This document shows, piece after piece, positions 17,268 to 23,175 of a stretch of DNA of 64,000 nucleotides (position 1 is its first letter; each line of letters starts with the position of its first letter). This DNA is from Borreliella spielmanii (GTDB lineage Bacteria; Spirochaetota; Spirochaetia; Borreliales; Borreliaceae): contig NZ_JACHFA010000002.1 in NCBI RefSeq assembly GCF_014201705.1, positions 346,674-410,673 on the forward strand, given 5' to 3'. Both the position numbers and the translations under genes were made by a program. Below the pieces are notes generated by a model, which saw only the letters and a program-made list of their open reading frames with translations, was not told where the DNA came from and did not search any database.

Positions 17268-18326
17268 TTTAAATACTCTTCTATGAAATTATCTATATTA
17301 CCATCCATAACTGAAGTGGTGTTTGAATTTTCAAATTTTGTTCTGTGATCTTTTACTAAATTGTAAGGTTGAAATACGTAAGATCTTATTTGGTTGCCCC
17401 AAGAAATTTCTTTTTTTGTGTCTTGCTTGGATTTGTTTTTTTCATCCTCTTTATTCTTATAGTATTCGTAAAGTCTTGATTTTAAAACTTTCATTGCCAT
17501 GTCTTTGTTTTTGTGTTGACTTCGGTCGCTTTGGGATTGAGTTACTATTCCTGTTTCAATGTGAGTTATTCTTACAGCAGAAGATGTTTTGTTGACGTGT
17601 TGTCCTCCGGCTCCTGATGCTCTGTATGTATCAATTCTTATATCTTCTGGTTTGATTATTATTTCTATTTTTTCGTCAATAACAGGGTCAACAAATACTG
17701 AGGCAAAAGAGGTATGTCTTTTTTTAGCAGCATCAAACGGAGAAATTCTTATAAGACGATGTATTCCGACCTCACTTTTTAACAGCCCATAGGCGTACTC
17801 GCCTTTAATTTCTATTGTAACAGATTTGATTCCACCTTCTGCTTCAAGCAGATCAATAAGTTCTGTTTTGTATTTTTTCCTCTCAGCATATCTTGAATAC
17901 ATTCTGTAAAGCATTGCAACCCAATCACATGCTTCAGTGCCTCCAGCGCCAGAATGAATAGTTAAAAAAGCTCCGTTTGCGTCAAGCTCTTCTTTAAAGT
18001 AAGAAATTGTTAGTAAATCTTTGTATTGTTTTTCAAGCACATTAAATTCGATTTCCAAGCTGTTAATATCTTTTTCATTTTCAATAATTTCACAAAGATC
18101 ATCCAAGTCTTTGATTTTGTTGATTAGCTCTACCCACGGATCAACTTTGTTTTTTAAAATGCTTTGAGCTTTGATAACTTCTTGAGCTTTTTTAGGATCA
18201 TTCCAAAAATTTTTTTGGTTTATTTCTTTTTCATATTTTTCGATTTTAGCTTGAATTTCTTTTTTGTCAAAGCTTCCTCCAAATGTCTTCGGCTTGCTCA
18301 AGCAGTATATTTATTTTTTCTTTCAT
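17249..18326 (-). CDS. prfB: Peptide chain release factor 2, made by programmed +1 frameshift
   Basis: RF2 ends translation at UAA and UGA. The main frame holds the SPF codon-recognition tripeptide (RISPFDAAKKRH) and the GGQ catalytic motif (GAGGQHVNKT). The true start is ATG 18326 in another frame, which encodes MKEKINILLEQAEDIWRKL and then meets TGA at 18269-18267. A +1 shift at CTT TGA C joins it to DKKEIQAK, giving about 358 residues with a normal RF2 N-terminus. A TTG at 18301 in the main frame would give an unnatural N-terminus and is not used here. The level of RF2 itself should control the shift. Confidence 0.95.
18266..18281 (-). promoter_or_regulatory. prfB programmed +1 frameshift site
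   Basis: Reading the minus strand, TGGAGG, AAG, CTT, TGA, C places a Shine-Dalgarno-like GGAGG 3 bases before the CTT slippery codon, followed by the in-frame TGA and C. This is the same arrangement as in E. coli prfB (SD, 3 bases, CUU UGA C). The ribosome slips from CUU to UUU when RF2 is scarce. Confidence 0.95.
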
Positions 18327-18344: not shown

Positions 18345-18902
18345 TTAATTGTATATTAATATAATTATATTTGGAATTAAAGATAAAATAAACATTATAA
18401 AAAAATATATTGGTTCATTTTCTAATATTTTGATTTTTGGGTTTTTATCAAAGTTTTTTTTTATTGCTGTTATTAATATTAAAGCTATTAGTATGCCAAG
18501 TGCGGACAGAATAAGTATTTCTAATCCTTCAAAAAATCCGTTGTTTTTATCAAGTGCAAAAAATGTTATTGCAATTAAGCTGCTGTTTGAAAGCATAAAA
18601 TCGTTTGAATAATTTGATTTTTTATTGTAAACAATAAATATATCATTTAAAACTTTAAATAATAATATCAACATGTAAATTAAAGTTGTATAAAAAATTG
18701 GCATTAAGAACAATAAATTGTTATTTGCAAGTAGTTTATAAAAATAAAATGACATTGAATATATTAACAAAGAGGCAACCGTTATTGTAACATATTTTCT
18801 TATCAATATTGCATTATTTTTTATTTTTATATCCTCAAATCCAACAAAGTGTATTAAGGTTAGGTTGTTAATAATCAAGCATGTGATCAAATCATTAGTC
18901 AT
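18345..18902 (-). CDS. RnfA/RnfE-like membrane protein without Fe-S cysteines
   Basis: A 185-residue polytopic protein with about six helices. By eye it aligns with RnfA over its length: IINNLTLIHFVGF matches the NNFVLVKFLGLCP region and FMLSNSSLIAIT matches LITTNCAVLGVA. In Rnf/Nqr these two regions carry the cysteines that hold a [2Fe-2S] cluster inside the membrane. Here they read GFED and NSS, so both cysteines are missing. The ATG overlaps the stop of the RnfC-RnfD-like gene (ATGA), and prfB follows after 18 bases. RnfA and RnfE are paralogs and I cannot say which this is. Confidence 0.78.
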   Translation of the reverse strand: MTNDLITCLIINNLTLIHFVGFEDIKIKNNAILIRKYVTITVASLLIYSMSFYFYKLLANNNLLFLMPIFYTTLIYMLILLFKVLNDIFIVYNKKSNYSNDFMLSNSSLIAITFFALDKNNGFFEGLEILILSALGILIALILITAIKKNFDKNPKIKILENEPIYFFIMFILSLIPNIIILIYN

Positions 18903-21217
18903 AATTTTATTATATCCTTTTCATTTTCAAAAGGGGTTTTGAGAGCTTTTTCTTTATTTATTTTCCAAAAATGTATTATTTTTTTAATTTTAAAGGTCAA
19001 ACTGTATTTTTTTATTAGGTTTGAGCTTATTTGTAAAACAAAAATAGATATTATGGCCGATAAAGTTTCAAAAGGAATATAGCTTAATATTGAAAAGTAT
19101 ATAAATGCTAATAGTGATCCGTAGAGTATTTGCTCAAATTGGAAATGAGGTGCTACTTGTATTTCTGTTGCTATTGTAAATATTAAAAGCATTGGTATTG
19201 GAGAAATAAGTAATGTTAACATATCTGAGCTGATGTGGCTTAGAATTCCTATATTATGCATTATGTATGAAATCGTCATTAAACTTATGTAAAATGACAA
19301 TGGTATTAATTTGTTAATTATATATTTACCAACTATTAATAATAGTCCAAAATAAAGCAAGATTGGAGATATTTTTTTTTCATTATTAATTCCTAAAAGA
19401 CTTTCAATATGAAATCTTGTGACAATTATATTGAAAATGGAAAAAATGTTTTTATTTACGAAGTTTTCAATTGCATCGATTTTTTTGTTTTCATACCTTG
19501 TTAAGGTATTTAAACTTTTTAGATTTTTTATGTTTGGATTTGTGTCAATTATTTCATTCCAGGTTGGAATTATTGATGTTGAGTTTTTAAGCGATTCTTG
19601 ATAGGTTTGCTTAAAACTTAGTGGAAAATTTAATACAAAAAATATAAAAGAAATTAATATAGGATTTGCCAAAAATGCTGATAGCCTGGAAAAGTAAAAG
19701 AATACTAAAAAGGTAAATAATAAGGAGGTTATCTTTAGTGCAATTTCTAAATTTAAAGGCAATATAATGCTTATCATTAAGGCATTGTAAATAAAAAAAG
19801 ACAAGCATTTGTAATTAATTTTTAGCATTATTGGTATGTAAATTGCCATACTAATAAATATTAACAGCAAAGTGTCTATCATGAATTTTGTGTTATTTAG
19901 GAAAGAAAATATTAGACTAGGCAATAATGATAGTATAATAGTAAAGTATATGTCTTTTAAATTGTTTTCAGTATATATTACCCCATTTATTAGATTTTCA
20001 TTTAGAATTTTGCCTTTAATTTCTGTTTGAACTTTATGTATTTCTTCTTCTACTTCTTTGTCTGTATATTTAAATATTTTTAATTTACCGCTATCATCTT
20101 TTTTTTCATTCTTTAAGTATGAAAAAATAATATTTTCCATTTGCAATGGGGAAAAGCTAGATACAAACAATGCTCTAATTTTGTCATATATTGATTTTTT
20201 CTTTAATATGGTTAGGCTATAAATATCTCTTGTTATTGGTATGTTTAATGTTTCAATTTTTATTTTGTTGGTTGGGTTGTTTAAAAAAATTTCATATTTT
20301 TTTGTGTCAATTTTTTCATTTATTATTTGGCTGAAAGAAGTTCCAATTTTTACTTTAAGTATTCTACTTTTTATTTTTTTATTTCCATTTATAGCTACAA
20401 ATTTTTCTTTATAAGGATTGTTATTTTTTATAACAAGATTTGTGTTATATAGATCTTCAATATTTGCTAATAAAATATTGTTGTGGGGGTTTATATCATT
20501 TTTTGTGTTTTTATTGTTGTATAAAAAGTGCATTATCATTTCATGATTTGTATAAGGATATTCATTTTCTAAAGATTTAATTTTTATTTTTTTGTTTTTA
20601 AAAATACTCAATTTTTCTAATTCTTTTTTAAGTTTTTCTTTATTTGATATTATTGTTACTTCTTTGAATTTAAATATTTTGTCGATTATTTGGAATCCCG
20701 AAAGAATATCTTCTAATTTTTCCGCCATCAGTGCTTCTGAAATATTTGTAAACACATCTTTTCCGTTTGTTAATAAAATCATTTTGTCTATTTTTTTACA
20801 TTTGTTTATGAATTGAAATAAAGAATTCTCGTTAAACCAAGGAATTCCTAGTTGAATTAATTTTGCTAGGGTTTTTTCTCTTGAGCTTTCATCTTCTATT
20901 AGGGCTTTTTCGGTTTTTATTTTTCCTTGAAATTTGATTAATACTGATTTTAATTTTTTTCCATCTGGAAGGTTGGCTGTGTATATTTTTTCTACTATTC
21001 CAGATATTGGTGAATATGTGTATAGTTCTATGTTAGAATTTTTTGATAAAATTTGATTTTCTTCTATTTTTTGTTTTTCAATTATATATACTACAGATTT
21101 TGAATTTTCTGTTTCAAGGGGTATTAGAGCATATTCAGGTATTTGAATCTCGTCAATGTTTATTTCGTATTTATTATATTTTTTAAAAATTGTTTTTATT
21201 TTTTCTAACTCTAGCAT
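18899..21217 (-). CDS. RnfC-RnfD-like fusion protein without visible cofactor motifs
   Basis: A 772-residue protein. Residues about 25-375 follow RnfC: IPEYALIPL, SPISGIV at 69-74, SREKTLAKLIQLG at 112-124, NEYPYTNHEMI at 218-228 and the IGTSFSQIIN segment at 291-300. Residues about 415-740 form some nine membrane helices that follow RnfD (for example FTIATE at 680-685, matching FIATDP). The glycine-rich RnfC motif GLGGAGFPT is replaced by GIPWFNENSLF. The two CxxCxxCxxxCP clusters are replaced by a cysteine-free stretch (345-372). No S/TGAT flavin-attachment motif is seen in the RnfD part. The whole protein has two cysteines. An ancestral redox role is clear; the present function is unknown. 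Confidence 0.8.
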   Translation of the reverse strand: MLELEKIKTIFKKYNKYEINIDEIQIPEYALIPLETENSKSVVYIIEKQKIEENQILSKNSNIELYTYSPISGIVEKIYTANLPDGKKLKSVLIKFQGKIKTEKALIEDESSREKTLAKLIQLGIPWFNENSLFQFINKCKKIDKMILLTNGKDVFTNISEALMAEKLEDILSGFQIIDKIFKFKEVTIISNKEKLKKELEKLSIFKNKKIKIKSLENEYPYTNHEMIMHFLYNNKNTKNDINPHNNILLANIEDLYNTNLVIKNNNPYKEKFVAINGNKKIKSRILKVKIGTSFSQIINEKIDTKKYEIFLNNPTNKIKIETLNIPITRDIYSLTILKKKSIYDKIRALFVSSFSPLQMENIIFSYLKNEKKDDSGKLKIFKYTDKEVEEEIHKVQTEIKGKILNENLINGVIYTENNLKDIYFTIILSLLPSLIFSFLNNTKFMIDTLLLIFISMAIYIPIMLKINYKCLSFFIYNALMISIILPLNLEIALKITSLLFTFLVFFYFSRLSAFLANPILISFIFFVLNFPLSFKQTYQESLKNSTSIIPTWNEIIDTNPNIKNLKSLNTLTRYENKKIDAIENFVNKNIFSIFNIIVTRFHIESLLGINNEKKISPILLYFGLLLIVGKYIINKLIPLSFYISLMTISYIMHNIGILSHISSDMLTLLISPIPMLLIFTIATEIQVAPHFQFEQILYGSLLAFIYFSILSYIPFETLSAIISIFVLQISSNLIKKYSLTFKIKKIIHFWKINKEKALKTPFENEKDIIKL

Positions 21218-21224
21218 TAGCTAT

Positions 21225-22697
21225 TTATCCTTGAATGTATTTTTTATAGGTTTTTTCATTTATGTTTAAAAGAATTGTAAATCTTATTGCTTTAAATAGA
21301 AATAGCAATACAAAGAAAGGCAAAGAGAATAAGAAGAGCATTTTGTAATTTTTTTTGTCTATGTTGATATTATTCTTGTTTTCTTTATATATTAAGATTG
21401 GATTTTTATTTTTTAAAAACAGACTTGAAAGATCTTTTTTAAGGGTTTCGTCAATAAATGATCTGTTTACTTCATAAACAGTTTTAGAATTAATTTCTAT
21501 CTTGTCGTTTTTGATTTCAAAGTAATTTTCTTTTATATCTTTAGGAATTTTTCCATATTTAGCGGTAATATTGTACTTTAGTTCGTTTTGATAAATGATA
21601 TGGGATAGGTATCCCACAATATTGGGTATGTTCTTATTATATCCTAGCATTATATAAATATTATTAGGATTTAAATAATCAAAATAGTTTAACTTTTTAC
21701 TGTAAAGGTAGTTGATTTTTTTATAAGAGTTTAGCATGTAGCTTGAATAGGCGAATGGTATTAATGAGAATGTAAATAGCAGTAGATGTATTACTATTTT
21801 AAATTTTAAAGCTTTTTTTTCTTCTTTTGTTCTCTCTTTAATTTCGATCGGGAATAAAAATGTATCTTTAAAGTTGCTTTCTGTTTTAATCCAGCTGAAG
21901 ATTAGGAAAATACAAAGGGTTGGTATTGCAACAAATGCAATCAAAGTTGGATCAATATTTGTAGTAAAAAAGGTTGCAATTATAACGAAATATAGAGTTG
22001 CGAATATAAACAAAAATAATAAGTGCTTGATTTTTGTTATTAGTGTTAAAAAATTTATTTCTTTTAAATATATTTTATTGTAATTTTTGTTAAAATTATT
22101 GATTATTAAATATAACAAATAAGAGAGAACTGTAAATGGATAAAAATACATTATTTCTTTGCTTATTACAAAAGTAAGTGATGAAATTAATAGAAAAATT
22201 AAAGTAAATATAGAGTTTTTTGGGTCTAGAAAAATTAATAAAATTATTGTGATTGAAAATATTATGCTCGAAATGAAATTAATTTTTGTTTTGTAGTCAA
22301 GAGAATGCATGTCAACATTGATATTGAGATCTTTTTTTAGTTTTTTAAAATTTATAGTTTTAAACCTGTTTTCAACATATAGAAGTTTTTTATCTTCTAC
22401 GTTGAAAAGATTGGGGAGTTTTTTTAAAAATATATTTTTCCTCAGGTCAAGATTGTTGAGTTTATTTATTTCATTTATTGTGATTTTTTTATTTTCGGGA
22501 AAGTCTAAAATGTCAATTTTTGTTGTATATTCTGAGATTGTTTTATATCCTAGTGAATTTATATATTCATTAGCAGTTTTTAGATCGGCTTCATTTGTAA
22601 AATATAATGGGTTGTAATCCCCAAACTGAGCTACATTGCAGGAATTGATAAGTGGTATTGTTGTAATTAAACATAAAAAACTTAAAAAACGAACCAT
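21225..22697 (-). CDS. Polytopic membrane protein with N-terminal lipobox-like site
   Basis: A 490-residue protein I do not recognise. It begins with a signal-like helix ending LINSC (C20), which fits a spirochetal lipobox. An extracytoplasmic domain of about 140 residues follows, then at least five helices between about 162 and 270, another near 300-320, a second soluble domain (about 325-455) and a last helix at about 458-478. It ends 7 bases before the RnfC-RnfD-like gene, whose Shine-Dalgarno lies in its last codons, so the two are co-expressed. It could be a partner subunit of that module. It does not resemble RnfB, RnfG or RnfE. Confidence 0.75.
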   Translation of the reverse strand: MVRFLSFLCLITTIPLINSCNVAQFGDYNPLYFTNEADLKTANEYINSLGYKTISEYTTKIDILDFPENKKITINEINKLNNLDLRKNIFLKKLPNLFNVEDKKLLYVENRFKTINFKKLKKDLNINVDMHSLDYKTKINFISSIIFSITIILLIFLDPKNSIFTLIFLLISSLTFVISKEIMYFYPFTVLSYLLYLIINNFNKNYNKIYLKEINFLTLITKIKHLLFLFIFATLYFVIIATFFTTNIDPTLIAFVAIPTLCIFLIFSWIKTESNFKDTFLFPIEIKERTKEEKKALKFKIVIHLLLFTFSLIPFAYSSYMLNSYKKINYLYSKKLNYFDYLNPNNIYIMLGYNKNIPNIVGYLSHIIYQNELKYNITAKYGKIPKDIKENYFEIKNDKIEINSKTVYEVNRSFIDETLKKDLSSLFLKNKNPILIYKENKNNINIDKKNYKMLFLFSLPFFVLLFLFKAIRFTILLNINEKTYKKYIQG

Positions 22698-22713: not shown

Positions 22714-23175
22714 TTATAAATAGCATACAATATATGCGGAGGCTATTCCTATTATTATGCCTGTTAAAACTTCTTTTTTTTTGTGCCCTTTGACCACTTT
22801 TATTTTTGTTGTGTCAATTTTTATTTCTTTTTTTAATTTTTCTGATAATGCATTCAAATATTCTGCCTGAACCCCAGACATATATCTTACGCCAAAAGAA
22901 TCTCTTATTGTAATAAGGGCAAAGGCAAGAGCTATTATAAAATTTGTACCTACTCCTTCAGTTAGTGCAATTGAGGTTGAAAGAGCGGTGACTGTTGATG
23001 AATGACTGCTTGGCATGCCCCCCGTTTCTAAAAAGATTTTTTTTAAAAGATGTGTTGGAGTTAGCTTTAGCTTTCTTGTTTTTACGGTTTGTATACCATA
23101 TTTAATTATTTGAGCAGAAATTCCTGATACAAGACAAGATAAAAAAAGATCATTGGTAAGCAATGCCCTTATCAT
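22714..23175 (-). CDS. YuiD-family (DUF212) membrane protein, divergent PAP2 relative
   Basis: A 153-residue protein of the divergent PAP2/DUF212 family. The key pattern is GGMPSSHSST at 52-61, like the phosphatase histidine motif of PAP2 enzymes, plus RDSFGVRYMSGVQAEYLN and GHKKKEV at about 129-135. Helices lie at the N-terminus, in the middle and at the C-terminus. The biochemical role of this family is not settled; a lipid phosphatase-like activity is inferred from the motifs. An AGGAGG site precedes the ATG. It sits between pepS and the Rnf-like module with short gaps. Confidence 0.85.
   Translation of the reverse strand: MIRALLTNDLFLSCLVSGISAQIIKYGIQTVKTRKLKLTPTHLLKKIFLETGGMPSSHSSTVTALSTSIALTEGVGTNFIIALAFALITIRDSFGVRYMSGVQAEYLNALSEKLKKEIKIDTTKIKVVKGHKKKEVLTGIIIGIASAYIVCYL

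Follow-up and report, generated by a model that had tools for sequence, protein, structure and literature searches.

Rnf and Nqr complexes are standard cases of ion transport driven by electron flow. In the Rnf complex of Acetobacterium woodii, according to PMC11889175, Na+ is proposed to cross through RnfA and RnfE beside their 2Fe-2S cluster, and not via RnfD, by alternating access. The site of this cluster is proposed to attract Na+, T111 and N112 are given a role with the ion, and RnfD also carries a non-covalent riboflavin in contact with N123 and D249. The membrane core of Na+-NQR keeps covalent flavin mononucleotides (FMNs), riboflavin, and a 2Fe-2S cluster. For Treponema pallidum, PMC7512555 puts forward a noncanonical RNF pump based on flavin, the genes for which are not named in the text as seen. 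Here we describe an Rnf-like locus of Borreliella spielmanii, in a window (the whole stretch analysed) of 64,000 nucleotides from contig NZ_JACHFA010000002.1, where three adjacent genes are predicted to encode an RnfC-RnfD fusion, an RnfA-type membrane protein, and a protein that we call X.

Like the Rnf complexes of Escherichia coli (Rsx), A. woodii (9eri), and Clostridium tetanomorphum (7zc6), the locus holds homologous C, D, and A subunits in the order C-D and then a membrane subunit, with an RnfC fold in the C half. Unlike them, it has C and D fused, X lies upstream, genes for B, G, and E were not found, and the sites for FMN in RnfC, for its 4Fe-4S clusters, for covalent FMN in RnfD, and for the 2Fe-2S cluster are missing. 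In place of the antiparallel RnfA/RnfE pair that carries the 2Fe-2S cluster there is an A-type protein only, and the covalent-flavin and iron-sulfur sites kept by Na+-NQR are absent as well. We place roughly even confidence in the reading that the fusion, the A protein, and X derive from a spirochaete Rnf operon and likely form a non-redox membrane complex, probably a cofactor-free ion carrier or conduit. A literature search of titles and the openings of abstracts found no report of cofactor-site loss in a spirochaete Rnf. A natural series that loses cofactor sites but keeps the membrane module would help to separate the ion-moving from the redox part of such machines, and it bears on how T. 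pallidum and Borrelia use their Rnf-like genes.

Homology of the Borrelia proteins to Rnf subunits

A preliminary description of this DNA had aligned a 772-residue protein with RnfC and then RnfD in one chain, and its neighbour with RnfA/E. The coordinates of both reading frames hold, at 18899..21217 and 18345..18902 (185 residues) on the minus strand, as does their coupling by ATGA, in which the start of the A gene overlaps the stop of the fusion gene. Profile-profile comparison (hhalign for the D half and the A protein) gives Rnf matches for both halves of the fusion and for its neighbour. The RnfC-like half (residues 15-343; 20189..21175, minus strand), with barrel-sandwich hybrid and Complex1_51K-like domains, matches 31 non-Borrelia rows (30 spirochaete loci and E. 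coli) at E 9.2e-28. The RnfD-like half (residues 414-738; 19004..19978, minus strand) matches 31 non-Borrelia rows at E 6.7e-14, with 0.51 for the reversed control. For the 185-residue protein, comparison with 25 RnfA rows gives E 1.4e-11 over 173 columns (reversed 0.27) versus 0.22 with 26 RnfE rows (reversed 0.12); the RnfA part of the earlier assignment thus stands and an RnfE identity is rejected. Across all comparisons the reversed Borrelia profiles gave E values of 0.12 to 0.51, and these controls, together with those using unrelated families, reject chance similarity. The charge bias of the A protein is also RnfA-like, and since it is one-sided (K+R 7 vs 2) a dual-topology protein serving as both A and E is rejected too.

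It is the profile-profile comparison that settles the homology, as single-sequence and curated-profile scores are weak to moderate. The fusion passes the Pfam cut-offs for NQR2_RnfD_RnfE (PF03116; 36.5 bits, cut-off 27.7) and RnfC_N (26.5 bits, cut-off 25.6), lies just under that for Complex1_51K (29.8 bits, cut-off 31.2), and scores 87.6 bits against TIGR01945 rnfC over residues 15-343, far under the curated cut-off of 245.95. The A protein has no Rnf match in the Pfam or NCBIfam libraries and reaches only E 0.2 against A. woodii RnfA as a single sequence. The structure model of the fusion has a mean predicted local distance difference test score (pLDDT) of 57.3, with 10-residue blocks of the C half mostly at 50-90; its top structural matches are RnfC chains and then NqrA, with only residues 4-397 well tested. 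A homologue search with D returned five proteins, and was one of three such searches that scored ∼8,000 candidates each, with a shallow reach beyond spirochaetes. Judged by profile comparison, the 772-residue protein is an RnfC-RnfD fusion and the 185-residue protein is of RnfA type. The homology itself is not new, because NCBI already names many orthologues of the fusion ‘RnfABCDGE type electron transport complex subunit D’.

Cofactor sites and gene retention in Borreliaceae

The iron-sulfur and covalent-flavin sites of Rnf are absent from the Borrelia proteins, as the preliminary description had proposed. The C half reads WFNENS--LFQF at the columns of the FMN glycine motif (GLGGAGFPTGVK in E. 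coli) and contains not one of the eight RnfC 4Fe-4S cysteines. The ATPL-type threonine motif for covalent FMN is missing from the D half. In the A protein, E and S replace the two 2Fe-2S cysteines: E23 (18834..18836, minus strand) stands at the position of the first and is Glu in 30 of 30 Borreliaceae orthologues, and S105-N106-S107 (18582..18590, minus strand) aligns with the T111-N112-C113 motif of RnfA, with S in 30, N in 28, and S in 28 of the 30. Searches of 30 such orthologues each of the fusion, the A protein, and X for C..C, [STD]GA[TS], and GG..[FV]P found none of these patterns. Displacement of the ligands to other places in the chain is rejected, as C140 is the sole invariant cysteine of the fusion and there is no invariant cysteine in the A protein. 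RnfB (TIGR01944), FMN_bind/RnfG (PF04205), and ApbE (PF02424) had no match in the three Borreliaceae genomes searched, so the absence of RnfB and RnfG first noticed near the locus extends to these genomes.

The claim that every redox site had gone does not extend to the riboflavin of RnfD. The A. woodii contact N123 aligns with N518 of the fusion (19664..19666, minus strand) and D249 with E685 (19163..19165, minus strand; Asp to Glu), each constant in 30 of 30 orthologues. The phrase ‘all redox sites’ is therefore better read as all iron-sulfur and covalent-flavin sites. The label ‘electron transport complex subunit’ on many orthologues of the fusion lacks support in their sequence. Borrelia is not known to respire.

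The fusion and the A protein were matched in 36 of 36 Borreliaceae genomes without disruption. Three fusion matches were flagged with one TAA, which is the gene's own stop (771 amino acids) and not an interior one. Ratios of nonsynonymous to synonymous substitution (dN/dS; Nei-Gojobori, 153 pairs from 18 same-genus loci) are 0.154 for the fusion (C half 0.140, D half 0.168), 0.193 for the A protein, and 0.195 for X, the highest single pair being 0.63, for A. The genes are kept by purifying selection and are not decaying, in agreement with the earlier view of them.

Graded site loss and protein X in other spirochaetes

Borrelia belongs to a wider group that we define here as the X-Rnf operon family, in which DUF212 and X lie upstream of rnfC and are followed by D and a membrane subunit. 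The Borrelia locus has this layout, with the order X, fusion, A protein constant in the 30 Borreliaceae loci read out. For comparison, 297 genomes were drawn from a larger class, and 32 wide loci were taken as weak-RnfC outliers or X matches, including one canonical locus (L085); they are not a random sample. Left uncounted in the scoring of sites were L137 (at a contig end), the split C gene of L131, and subunits without an assigned reading frame, and some G and E genes in L087, L088, L089, L090, and L095 were assigned by position only. A frequent order is DUF212 - X - C - D - G - E - A - (B) - GH57, often with a divergent RluA-like gene upstream.

Loss of sites across these loci is graded. 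The FMN motif of RnfC is intact in 7 of the 30 loci with a scored C gene, near-intact in one (L133), and gone in 22, and all eight RnfC cysteines are kept in 30 of 30 scored loci outside Borrelia. Thr or Ser is found at 11 of 30 D sites, two of these being Ser, a GAT-type motif occurs in 7 of 23 G or G-position genes, and both cysteines are found in 8 of 24 RnfA and 8 of 25 RnfE proteins, with three further RnfE proteins having one. Families f2, f17, f22, f25, f26, and f32 retain every scorable site (L130 is without E and A, L131 has the split C, and L145 has C only). Intermediate states are seen in f43, where L132 and L139 are without the C motif and have the D site, L139 retains the A and E pairs, and L133 has variant C and D motifs; in f45 (L095) the A/E and RnfC cysteines are retained. 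The stripped loci of f24 (n = 13; taken as the Treponema family), f8, f42, and f7 have lost the FMN(C), covalent FMN(D), and RnfA sites, have at most one cysteine in E, and keep the eight RnfC cysteines; an RnfB-like gene is kept in 7 of the 13 stripped f24 loci and in both f7 loci. In f15 (L087, genome G049) the order DUF212 - X - C - D, with prfB and PEGA genes nearby, is as in Borrelia; L087 retains the RnfC cysteines and an SATPL site in D, and a 208-residue gene after D has an RnfE-like charge bias.

Where the cysteine pair has been lost, all 16 A rows show the A charge bias and all 17 E rows the opposite one; the Borrelia protein carries the bias of A. Outside Borrelia and E. coli, 28 of 30 D rows have the riboflavin Asn. 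The 19 D rows without the covalent-FMN site differ at the riboflavin Asp position, 7 having D or E and 12 some other residue. Four genomes with a stripped or partly stripped operon (G058, G042, G085, and G200) also carry, elsewhere, a second RnfC whose motif is intact, and no RnfC above the cut-off was found in G108, G168, G173, or G228. A tree of 47 RnfC rows contains a 98/93 split that has all stripped rows except those of f43 on the same side; a single origin of stripping is not established, because Borrelia (3.5) and G049 (3.2) have long branches. On these alignments, site loss forms a graded series in which Borrelia is the extreme case. The preliminary description had tied the loss to an organism that lives with little iron, but the loss is not confined to Borrelia: iron sparing is rejected as the whole cause and could be at most the last step, because f24, f8, f42, and f7 lost flavin and RnfA sites yet keep the RnfC cysteines.

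We infer that genome G108 is T. pallidum and that the D gene of its locus L086 is TP0151. This gene has Val at residue 260, its codon 37 bases from the published place of the tp0151 Val260Ile change (PMC7162541). L086 (3434-10013) has the gene order DUF212, C, D, G-like, E, A, GH57. It is without the FMN(C), covalent FMN(D), GAT(G), and A/E cysteine sites, and its RnfC 4Fe-4S cysteines remain. A search of the G108 genome with TIGR01944 found no RnfB; all TIGR01945 matches lie within the single RnfC gene of L086, and ApbE and two FMN_bind matches occur elsewhere. The T. pallidum operon thus belongs to the same family as that of Borrelia, with the FMN(C) and covalent FMN(D) sites and the RnfA cysteines gone in both, but it differs in having separate C and D genes and in keeping the RnfC cysteines, E, and a G-like gene, and no X was found beside it. 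As far as motifs can tell, the L086 operon does not show the sites that the proposed RNF pump would need, although this does not refute the proposal, because other proteins might supply the flavin.

Protein X (490 residues; 21225..22697, minus strand) has a signal/lipobox-like start, an N-terminal soluble segment, a central transmembrane block, a second soluble segment, and a C-terminal transmembrane segment. It has no significant Pfam match where tested, and a homologue search with it gave 30 proteins, of which all the species-named ones were from Borrelia or Borreliella. A profile of seven non-Borrelia X proteins found X in 125 of the 297 genomes of the class and 61 of 112 genera (E 0.01 per genome). 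When 45 non-Borrelia X proteins were compared with 21 Borreliaceae rows, hhalign gave E 5.8e-19 over 386 columns; reversed profiles gave 0.06 and 0.12, and eight other families gave 0.13 to 0.59 against Borrelia X. Hydrophobic segments follow the same order with similar spacing in the X proteins of Borrelia, G173, G049, and G079, and that of G079, a genome with an intact Rnf, has a longer N-terminal part ahead of the common pattern. RnfC adjoins X in 30 of the 30 best X-profile loci (L096-L125, of which 11 coincide with wide loci), with the FMN motif in none and DUF212 in 29. X also stands directly upstream of an intact rnfC in L126-L130 and L145; none was recognised beside L085, L086, L088, L089, or L095. 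Because it lies upstream of rnfC in stripped and intact operons alike, X looks like an Rnf partner, a candidate unrecognised subunit or assembly factor in spirochaetes that outlives the redox sites. Judged from its sequence and gene neighbours, it belongs with the fusion and the A protein as a real partner common in many spirochaetes.

The DUF212/PAP2-like gene of the window (22714..23175, minus strand; PF02681, E 1e-35) represents the frequent upstream neighbour of X in these operons. As a separate observation, such a gene opens many of the operons, and a GH57 alpha-amylase/glucanotransferase-like gene closes many (L084, L086, L088, L089, L091, L092, L094, L095, and others). L092, from the Treponema-like genus g62 (G168), has C, D, G-like, E, A, and X in a genome without ApbE and FMN_bind, which makes G168 well suited to tests of whether an Rnf-like complex can be flavin-free.

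Possible roles of the proposed complex

We take X to be BB0071 from the gene order and numbering (aminopeptidase BB0069, then DUF212, X, the fusion, A, and prfB). Some X orthologues are labelled ‘Lipoprotein’ in UniRef. In PMC6516651, bb0071 (‘putative lipoprotein’) is among 46 genes with transposon-sequencing mutants that were present in the input library and not recovered from larval ticks.

That the locus encodes a non-redox complex kept by selection is, in our view, very probable; the ion-path mechanism, which the preliminary description had suggested as a gated ion path, is offered much more tentatively. The fusion, the A protein, and X would assemble into one complex, in which the RnfC-like domain would cap the cytoplasmic side and X would form the periplasmic part. 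The RnfA-type protein may still alternate between inward-open and outward-open states. The part of the redox-controlled 2Fe-2S site would be taken by invariant E23 and the retained Ser-Asn pair, and E23 could supply a permanent negative charge in place of the reducible cluster of Rnf. Borrelia S105-N106 lies at the T111-N112 ion site of A. woodii. A wider proposal, which we hold with slightly more reserve still, is that an ancestral Rnf pump became a non-redox machine in spirochaetes through stepwise loss of flavin and 2Fe-2S sites, and then of all iron in Borrelia. The membrane module with X would be a cofactor-independent ion carrier, and the ‘RNF pump’ of T. pallidum would be one such, not pumping by electron transfer.

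Several observations weigh against the main reading of a three-protein complex that probably carries ions without cofactors. The ion path proposed for Rnf depends on RnfA together with RnfE, and Borrelia yielded no RnfE-type gene; a PF02508 search of the genome had no match, although the same profile misses the A protein too. The ion-site Asn is not conserved in Treponema RnfA-type proteins, and their cysteine position varies (E, D, K, N); it therefore does not define the stripped class and is a detail of Borrelia's own. Stripped operons outside Borrelia are not cofactor-free, having RnfC cysteines and some RnfB-like genes, and in Borrelia itself the riboflavin site is not clearly lost, so that a flavin could still bind. 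The structure models of the D half (pLDDT mostly 30-65) and of X (53.8, with no PDB match at E 0.001) are poor. The seven-protein X profile found X in none of the 36 Borreliaceae genomes, and a first small profile-profile test with few sequences gave only E 0.064. Equating bb0071 with X rests on gene order and numbering, and bb0072 and bb0073 are not named in the text of PMC6516651.

The main rival is a scaffold or envelope role, in which the fusion, the A protein, and X would be a non-transporting scaffold for an envelope process and X and its DUF212/PAP2 neighbour the working parts. The joint occurrence of X and DUF212 in intact and stripped operons, the two sizeable soluble segments of X, and the loss in ticks of bb0071 mutants that were present in the input culture (PMC6516651) are in its favour. 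However, a shared gene neighbourhood need not equal a shared function, and purifying selection acts on the membrane modules of RnfD and RnfA type, whose hydrophobic and charge patterns are kept; we regard this role as somewhat unlikely. More improbable is a residual redox complex, in which the D half would still hold a non-covalent riboflavin and the C half a nucleotide, the two passing electrons to some other partner. The invariance of N518 and E685 is consistent with it, as is NqrA, the RnfC homologue of Nqr, which is without cofactors inside a redox-active complex (PMC12174285). Yet a riboflavin in the Borrelia complex would be without an electron partner, because the other cofactor sites and RnfB, RnfG, and ApbE were not found, and A. 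woodii Rnf variants without the 2Fe-2S, B8, FMN(G), or riboflavin site showed no NAD+ reduction (PMC11889175).

Lost cofactor sites, a gene fusion, and missing subunits also resemble reduction, as would be expected of pseudogenes in slow loss. Such decay is rejected by frames without an interior stop in all 36 genomes and by dN/dS of 0.15-0.20, the bb0071 phenotype also standing against it, and is highly improbable.

The genes for the fusion, the A protein, and X share one strand, with X and the DUF212/PAP2-like gene upstream of the fusion and prfB and a PEGA protein gene downstream of the A gene. At prfB (18266-18326, minus strand), the ATG at 18326 may be the start, with an RF2-type +1 frameshift at CTTTGAC, which we take to be the motif for such a shift; the TTG listed as its start belongs to the second frame.

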